A DNA stretch of 64,000 nt from Malus domestica (taxonomy: Eukaryota; Streptophyta; Magnoliopsida; Rosales; Rosaceae). The DNA lies in the NCBI RefSeq assembly GCF_042453785.1, contig NC_091668.1, forward strand, positions 2,682,501-2,746,500. Direction: 5' to 3'. Positions 51,412 to 54,234 of the stretch are shown here, one piece after another (within the stretch, counting starts at the first letter, position 1; each line of letters opens with the position of its first letter). Made by a program: the position numbers and the translations under genes. Under the pieces are notes generated by a model that saw only the letters and a program-made list of their open reading frames with translations, ran no database searches and was not told the DNA's origin.

Positions 51412-52129
51412 CGTCTGCAAGCACATAAATAATGTTTTATTCTGATTCTCACATCGTTACATATGCGAATCGAACATCTGTAGGTAAAATAATTTATAAT
51501 TTCTACAAAACTCGCACAAAGCATATCAAACTTAATAATGTAATATAAAGTTATGACTAAATAATAGACGAAAATTATAAAATATAATTTGCAGATAAAT
51601 TTCCAGATTAAATCACAGAACAAAACCCAACTCCAGAGATTTCTAGGATATGTGTGTGTGTGTGTATAAACATGCGTACATTCATCAAAATTAAACAAAA
51701 AAATTATAGCACCAAAACATAGCTACATTCTTCAAAACCAAAATAATAAATACTTGACTTAATAATATTAATAAAAAATTTCGATTAAACTTTACATAGA
51801 TAATATATCCATATAAGTTTAAAAATGGATTCAAAAAACATTGAATGAATTTTGTATAAAAAAAAGGGTATATTTTATATTAAAAAAGTATTATATAACA
51901 AATTGGTATATTTAAGAAATTGTACATTTAAGATTAAAAAAATTGAAATATTATACAAATGGGTACATTTAAGATAAATAAATTGAAAATTCTTTTCATA
52001 AAAATTAATTAGTACAAATTTATTTTTATTTTATTTATTATTTTTTAAAATGTTTTGGATTGAAAATTAATTAAGAGTTTACTAAAGGTGTGAGTATCAA
52101 AACCTAATTCAATTACTAACTTTTATTTG
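51412..52129. other. intergenic, very AT-rich; short (TG)n at about 51652-51663
   Basis: No feature beyond the dinucleotide run, and no trace of the missing P450 first exon. Confidence 0.45.
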
Positions 52130-53195
52130 GGTAAATTACATTTGATCCCCACAGGTTTTTCAATTCCTTACAATATCTTTAAAACACTTCAATTTCATAC
52201 ATTTACTTATCATTTTATTTCAATTTCATACATCCGTTAAAAAACCTATTAAATAAACCGTTAAATGATGATGTAACAAATATAGAATCCATATTTGTGC
52301 TGACGTGGTTGACAAATTTGTGACATGTGGCCAAAAAAATTATGCATTTAAAATAGTATAATATTTATCCTATTTATTAAAAAAAAAAAAAAAAAAAAAA
52401 AACCCAGAAACCATATTCCCCGCAACCCACTCCCTCTCCTCAGCCCCATTCCACCCCCACCCCCCCTCCACAAACCCCCTAACCTCACCCCACCCTTTCT
52501 TGCTTCCATCCTCTAACTGTAATCCAATCAACACACAATAAATCCAAAAAATTCGAAAATTCGAAATCGAGATTAGCATTCTCTGGACCTGAAAATCGTC
52601 GGGGCAGAAGGCGAAGCAACGATTGACGAGGGCAGAGGAGTAGGTGCGGAGAGCCGAGTCGAATTGATCAATGATTGAGTCGAGATTGGGAGACGAGGGG
52701 CAGTGGTAGATGCTGATGACAACAAGGGTTTTGCGATTGGACTGGAAATCCTCCCACGGGGACAAAGGGGCCCCGCCCAGGACGAACTTGAATCGGATGT
52801 TGCCGGAATCCAAGGGCTGGTGGGCGAAGGGGGACTTCAGGTGCTCAGTGTAGATGGGGAAGGGGTGAGGTTGGGGGGTGGGTAATGATTTCTGGTTTGA
52901 TTGGGTTTTTTTTTTTTTTTTAAATTTAATAAATAGGATAAATATTATAATATTTTAAATGCATAAAAAAAAAAAAAAATTTGCCACATGTCACAAATTT
53001 GGCAGTCACGTCAGCACAAATGTGGATCCCATATTTGCTACGTCATCACTTAACGGTTTACTTAACAAATTTTTTAACAGATGTATGAAACAAATTTTCT
53101 AACAGATGTATGAAATTGAAATAAAATCATAAGTAAATGTATGAAATTGAAATATTATAAAAAAGTTTCAAGTGAAGGATCAATTATCACACCAC
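52130..53195. mobile_element. long-TIR (MULE-like) element carrying a host gene fragment
   Basis: The left arm 52135-52405 and right arm about 52905-53190 are inverted copies of each other over about 250 bp. Shared words: TTTGTGCTGACGTG, AAATTTGTGACATGTGG, TATGCATTTAAAATA, TATAATATTTATCCTATTTATTAAA. The start GGGTAAATTACATTTGATCC is of the kind seen in plant Mutator-like elements. Between the arms lies a GC-rich TRS120 fragment instead of transposase. Target duplication not resolved, so ends are approximate. Confidence 0.82.
52490..52872 (-). pseudogene. captured fragment of TRS120 (TRAPPII subunit, TRAPPC9 homologue)
   Basis: The minus strand encodes YTEHLKSPFAHQPLDSGNI, RFKFVLGGAPLSPWEDFQSN, CPSSPNLDSIIDQFDSA and SSALVNRCFAFCPDDFQ, then LEDGSKKG. 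This matches the N-terminal region of plant TRS120, a tethering subunit of the TRAPPII complex acting at the trans-Golgi and cell plate. An ~85-bp intron is retained between DFQ and LEDGSKKG (CAG|GTCCAGAG ... TTACAG|TTAG), so capture was from genomic DNA, not mRNA. It covers roughly 100 residues of a protein over 1,000 long, with several substitutions versus the family, and is not a functional gene. Enclosed on both sides by the inverted arms of the transposon. Confidence 0.85.
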
Positions 53196-53199
53196 AATA

Positions 53200-54234
53200 T
53201 AATCAGGGCTAAAAGATTAGTTAATACTAGGGAGACTATCAAATAATGTAGTTGTTGATGATTAAATTATTATTTCTTTGTATGGACCAAAAACTAATTT
53301 AGTCTATTCATATAGCTTCCCAGACAAATTACTCAACTTGGACACAATGTCCAAGTCAGAACCATTCCACTCCTCATCAACAACCTGCCCTTAAGGCATG
53401 GCAAAGATAATGTCATCCTTCTCTTTTTTGAAGACAAAATCATCGTCATTCTCGCTGAGATAGAGTCGGCTTTATCTGGCAAGGTTGGCAAAGGAGTTGC
53501 CTCTCATCTACTGGACATCCCTTTCTTTTTCTGGCGATCTAACTTTCACTTTCAAGCCTGTTGGGAACAGGTTTTGCCTAGTGTTGATTAACGTGCTTAT
53601 TTTCTATTGGTGACATATCATTTGTTTGCAAACTGGGTTTAAAATTTTAGTTACTTAGGAGTACGAGTACCCTAAAATATTGGATGGCTAACGTGGAGAC
53701 AGCTAACCGTCATTTAAAATATTAAGGCGCAGCCGGAAGGATCGATCGGAAACCAAATTGTTAAACGACTTTCAGGAGCGAAGAATTTTTATCAATTTGT
53801 TTTTGAACATTTATCATTTAACTAAGCTTTTCACAGACATATTTCTTAACATTTAAATAAACTATCCATCAAATTGGTGTTTAATATGTATGTAGGGGGA
53901 GCAAATCTTGGTAGTTTGAGATTCGAAAGTGTGAAAATGATTTCATTAATAATAACATCCAATAGAGTTAACGGTTAAAGTTCAATAAACTTACTTTACA
54001 ATAGAACTGAATGGACCAAAAAAAAAATTGAATGAACTAAAAATATAAATTAAAGGCACTCCAACGATTTTAAGTTTTATAAATAAACTATTTAAGAGCA
54101 AAAAAAAAAATTGAATGAACTAAAAATATAAATTAAAGGCACTCCAACGATTTTAAGTTTTATAAATAAACTATTTAAGAGCAAAACGAGAAAAAATATG
54201 TTTACTTTCCTTTTAAATTACTGAGTTTGAAGTA
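53200..54234. other. intergenic with disrupted MITE family B pieces and a tandem duplication
   Basis: CTAGGGAGACTATCAAATAA (about 53226) and TTAACGTGCTTATTTTCTATTGGTGACA (about 53588) are halves of a family-B-like MITE split by ~300 bp of unrelated sequence. An 83-bp unit starting TTGAATGAACTAAAAATATA repeats in tandem at 54028 and 54111. Confidence 0.55.

Follow-up and report, generated by a model that had tools for sequence, protein, structure and literature searches.

A TRS120 gene fragment captured between the TIRs of a decayed Pack-MULE family member in apple

The window studied here is a stretch of 64,000 nucleotides (C8:2682501-2746500) of the apple genome (651 Mb in 19 contigs). It contains a GC-rich block of sequence from TRS120, a gene that serves trafficking in the cell, enclosed by two inverted TIRs (Table 1). 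An initial annotation of this DNA had described two inverted arms of about 250 bp. Alignment and BLAST uphold the pair, and the length is revised: the arms measure ~330-360 bp, with C-rich inner ends. In a local alignment, 52178-52435 pairs with 53161-52861, and arm-to-arm BLAST alignments of 182 to 256 bp are ~76% identical (best E 1e-55). The arms were aligned with a family consensus built from 36 arms of 18 members, and the termini of other members align on base 52129. The inner motif AACCTCACCCC occupies 52481-52491 in the left TIR and 52862-52872 in the right, at distances of 2 bases (left) and 4 bases (right) from the TRS120 match. The right TIR also holds an extra 25-bp tandem copy (53064-53113), and its exact end, at about 53193, is uncertain. 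The initial annotation had looked to arm alignment for both the TIRs and a 9-bp duplication; the TIRs could be placed, and no 9-bp target duplication was found for the window copy, whose right end is eroded and whose edge therefore cannot be fixed. Near-repeats such as GAGTATCAAA/GACTATCAAA, at 52092 and 53234, lie around the copy at about chance level by our estimate. The element was not extended to these near-repeats, since the terminus of other members is at GGGTAAATT, which is base 52129 here.

Table 1. Features of the element, in window coordinates.
Feature	Position	Strand	Description
Left TIR	52129..52491	+	Terminus GGGTAAATTACATTT..., then poly-A and C-rich inner end; placed by consensus alignment
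Captured TRS120 fragment	52494..52857	-	Exon 1 from codon 48, intron 1 and first exon 2 codons
TRS120 intron 1, retained	52517..52588	-	72 bp, GT..AG intact
Right TIR	52862..53193	-	Inner part well conserved, outermost ~50-65 bp eroded; placed by consensus alignment

When the right flank was used to seek an empty site genome-wide, mitochondrial DNA and short repeats were the only matches, with no long homologous site. Beside the element, 53274-53579 has the look of mitochondrial DNA inserted into the nucleus as a composite: 53274-53388 matches C18:393642-393756 (96%) and, abutting this piece, 53387-53579 matches C18:18828-19021 (92%), C18 being a 396,947-bp contig that we take to be the mitochondrial genome. 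The following ~72 bp (53580-53651) are a short dispersed repeat, with more than 30 genome places among the matches listed, mostly at 85-93%.

The TRS120 identity of the block, first proposed from the letters alone, is borne out at the DNA level. A BLAST search of the genome with 52494-52857 returned the window itself, C15:9583895-9584286 and C8:15647404-15647793. Gapped identity is 86% to the C15 TRS120 locus and 81% to the C8 locus; without gaps, the block agrees with C15 at 337/364 positions and with C8 at 319/362, and the two loci agree with each other at 362/389. The search for a parental locus, which the initial annotation had suggested, thus places C15 nearest and C8 second, and no further copy of the block was found in the 651-Mb genome besides these two TRS120 loci. 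At the protein level, the minus-strand frame just missed the cut-off for Pfam PF08626, TRAPPC9-Trs120 (E 3.2e-5; 22 bits against 24.7), and a PDB search with the minus-strand open frame P0001 gave no match. The block had been read as the N-terminal region of TRS120. It is indeed exon 1, and the very N terminus is absent, the first 47 codons being missing from the fragment. The intron had likewise been recognised, with a claimed length of ~85 bp; its GT..AG ends are as expected, and its length is that given in Table 1. In both the C15 and C8 genes intron 1 is 100 bp, an alignment gap of 28 bases relative to the block. Since the captured intron is a multiple of three in length, frame P0001 stays open through it. 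An RNA-derived, processed TRS120 pseudogene trapped in a transposon would also be a coding-gene fragment away from its parent, but it should not carry an intron with GT..AG ends, and we consider the chance of such an origin vanishingly small.

The C15 locus is a multi-exon TRS120 gene, in which four of seven tested ORFs match PF08626 (E 1.5e-6 to 6.3e-21). The same is true of two of the three ORFs tested at the C8 locus. The C8 copy (C8:15642400-15652390) is frameshifted by a 2-base gap in exon 1, and later TRS120 ORFs known from C15 are absent from its list of ORFs of 60 aa and up. It therefore looks decayed, and for the same reasons C15 may be the sole working TRS120 copy. According to Table 1 of PMC7935947, the part of that paper relied on here, the pseudogenes of Phaseolus vulgaris are enriched in the Trs120 domain (odds 29.22). 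Had the arms also flanked native TRS120, the notion of capture would have been undermined; no TIR of the arm family was found in the 10 kb surrounding either the C15 or the C8 locus. Likewise, when 51501-54000 was compared by BLAST with the 10 kb at each of the two loci, the captured block was the sole match in both.

The arm family is large. The left-arm query (52125-52350) has at least 41 genome matches (best 40 of 2033 candidates scored), and the right-arm query (228 bases) at least 42 (best 40 of 1062 candidates scored); among the right-arm matches listed, none but the query itself extends past base 190. A genome search for the 27-base terminus that tolerated up to 2 mismatches found 331 occurrences, and the reversed sequence, used as a control, had 0. 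Target duplications were scored at 30 loci from the left-arm search, which are 29 distinct sites since two of them (L007 and L013) are one element, with the best terminus pair used wherever a site offered several. There were 14 perfect 9/9 duplications, 6 of 8/9 and 1 of 6/9; the remaining 8 sites, including the window, lack a terminus pair. This 9-bp duplication marks the family as a member of the Mutator superfamily (MULE). Long TIRs are general: in 19 of the 20 paired members the longest self-alignment piece spans 38 to 437 bp, with none in L017. In the paired members, GC-rich cores (0.42-0.62) lie between AT-rich arms. Long core-to-core matches link L012 with L019, L020 with L028 and L011 with L031, and a 167-bp stretch of the L009 core matches L012 and L019. 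Many shorter core matches (about 25-166 bp) join other members, and we read most of these as inner TIR ends.

In L016 (C14, about 11.162 Mb), a 2164-bp unit (554-2717) encloses an inverted arm pair and is flanked by a perfect 9-bp duplication. Its inner arm pair is reminiscent of the MULEs with extra TIRs described in the available portion of PMC3310237. A 9.6-kb terminus pair on C5 was considered as an autonomous element and rejected, as its outer flanks differ; it is two elements, one with a perfect 9-bp duplication and the other with one mismatch. No MULE transposase was recognised in this 9.6-kb pair when its translation was read by eye, and the ORF between the two elements looks hAT-like.

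Other members carry fragments of other genes. In a Pfam scan of 10 member cores, one chosen frame each, matches were obtained for OST3/OST6 in L029 (E 3.6e-13), GT8 in L035 (E 1.4e-8) and, just under the cut-off, adenylate kinase in L016 (E 2.2e-5); the other 7 of the 10 cores gave no Pfam match. Genome searches with these three cores returned candidate native loci. The OST3 core has 6 matches, the best others lying on C10 and C5, followed by C2 (two matches) and C7 (one). The adenylate kinase core has 50, best elsewhere on C4 and C12, many of them short and covering the last ~65 bases, and the GT8 core has 20, best elsewhere on C13 and C16. C8/C15, C5/C10, C4/C12 and C13/C16 are presumably homeologous pairs of apple. 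No TIR was found in about 1.5 kb either side of the C10, C5, C4:19193759 and C12 candidates. The adenylate kinase match at C4:26899666 adjoins family TIRs, and so sits in another member. Given the 9-bp duplications and the OST3/6, adenylate kinase and GT8 fragments, the arm family is a Pack-MULE family. The Pack-MULE architecture first suggested for the window thus holds at the level of the family, on the strength of its other members.

These observations bear on a second way in which the locus could have arisen, namely a piece of a TRS120 segmental duplication with two TIR elements inserted independently on its sides. A pair of elements inverted relative to each other could look the same, and a missing target duplication would be accounted for. 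However, both arms reach the same inner motif immediately next to the TRS120 match, the similarity to the TRS120 loci is limited to the captured block, and the arm-core-arm layout recurs with other genes, and with 9-bp duplications, in other members. We therefore regard two independent insertions as highly improbable.

The mutational record of the captures can be read by comparison with the native loci. Changes specific to a capture were polarised by the nearest native locus together with the second locus, for TRS120, OST3 and adenylate kinase. The TRS120 capture has 13 C>T/G>A changes, 0 reverse changes and 8 transversions; the corresponding figures are 22, 0 and 4 for OST3, and 14, 1 and 6 for adenylate kinase. 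Pooled, the three captures have 49 C>T/G>A, 1 T>C/A>G and 18 transversions, against second-locus-only differences of 17, 16 and 24, the direction of which is not fixed (Fisher p 2.9e-7). By context, C>T/G>A changes in the pooled captures fall at 40/257 CG+CHG sites versus 9/276 CHH sites (p 6.9e-7; 0.04, 0.0005 and 0.009 for the captures taken singly). Such a pattern is as would be expected of methylated plant transposon DNA. Against the family consensus, the left TIR of the window copy has 12 C>T/G>A changes, 2 reverse changes and 2 transversions, and the right TIR 4, 0 and 2. Unlike in the captures, 8 of the 12 C>T/G>A changes of the left TIR are at CHH sites; the CG/CHG bias is therefore true of the captures and not of the left arm.

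The same alignments speak to the source and timing of the capture. Among intron sites that differ in one sequence alone, 1 is in the window, 10 are in the C8 copy and 0 in C15, which favours the C15 lineage as the source and a capture later than the C8/C15 duplication. Exon sites differing alone number 20 in the window, 9 in the C8 copy and 3 in C15. Compared with C15, the window has 26 changes in 292 exon sites and 1 in 72 intron sites. This excess was at one point regarded as a dating problem, an idea that was dropped because the base-change pattern explains it better: in this comparison of the window, C15 and C8 copies alone, it probably reflects the many methylatable C sites of the exon.

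We see no sign that a protein from the captured fragment has been kept by selection. Captured exon 1 has 8 synonymous changes in 62 sites and 16 non-synonymous changes in 205. In a neutral simulation that laid 25 changes on exon 1 (24 were observed), 15.9 +/- 2.1 amino-acid changes were expected; 15 were observed, and 29% of the runs had no stop. These results weigh on the proposal that the fragment is functional, with TIR-driven small RNAs or a chimeric transcript tuning the parental TRS120. This proposal can draw on the open minus-strand frame, on a match of 364 bp that would in principle suffice for small RNAs, and on TIR promoters driving Pack-MULE interiors, as described in the accessible part of PMC3310237. 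Yet the first ATG of P0001 lies inside the intron, with none before it, the amino-acid changes are at the level of no selection, and an exon open in nearly a third of neutral runs may well be open by chance. In addition, one end of the element is eroded, no second copy was found in the genome, and the C>T-biased decay points to silencing. A functional fragment is thus very unlikely.

We consider it very probable that the window element is a decayed, non-autonomous Mutator-like element (Pack-MULE), with TRS120 sequence copied from the C15 lineage, that was subsequently silenced. A member of the large TIR family would have taken up about 390 bp from the C15 TRS120 gene, later than the duplication behind the C15/C8 pair. 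Because the intron is still present, copying would have been at the DNA level, the template being DNA and not RNA. Gap filling and template switching are proposed capture routes in the portion of PMC8277862 available to us. For the window element, the likeliest route would be either repair of a gap or template switching during replication, in each case ending within the C-rich inner margins of the TIRs. Thereafter, silencing, neutral drift and mutations of the methylated-transposon type would have shaped the sequence. The window copy itself, which is old and has an eroded right end, presumably transposed at some time in its past.

How does this element compare with known systems? Helitrons are rolling-circle, gene-capturing transposons that have neither TIRs nor target duplications. 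The window element shares with them the capture of gene fragments with introns; unlike Helitrons, its family has both TIRs and target duplications. Mutator elements make 9-11 bp duplications, their TIRs typically measure 100-500 bp, and gene fragments are the cargo of Pack-MULEs, as stated in the available text of PMC3310237; in rice and its relatives, MULEs take up GC-rich sequence, according to the corresponding text of PMC4858842. As far as these two sources go, the features shared with plant Pack-MULEs are the long TIRs, the 9-bp duplication of the family, the GC-rich gene fragments, native TRS120 loci that are free of TIRs, and the retained intron. Points of difference, within the same limits, are the woody eudicot host, the poly-A and C-rich inner arm ends, and the eroded right end and lack of a detectable target duplication in the window copy. 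With animal Pack-TIRs, as the part of PMC8277862 at hand describes them, the element has in common a single copy of captured host DNA, from an unlinked place, lying between TIR ends. There, 59.8% of captures have a same-chromosome source, whereas the native locus nearest to the TRS120 capture is on another chromosome. In a literature search that had most subscription journals outside its reach, we met no description of the arm family or of a TRS120 capture. The mechanism is already known, and the family with the TRS120 capture is a new instance and a clear example of it.

It is unlikely that the TRS120 capture matters to the plant, and the wider Pack-MULE family is more interesting than the window copy. 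Tentatively, and with low confidence, we suggest that it is a prolific, GC-preferring family in which duplicated gene pairs serve as outgroups, so that the source of a capture and its methylation-driven decay become readable; small-RNA feedback would be possible, perhaps on TRS120. The Pack-MULE work met here has been mostly on grasses. A eudicot family in which each GC-rich capture has two native loci would offer a clean test of capture origin, and would also test which of the parent copies is drawn upon and at what pace methylated captures decay.
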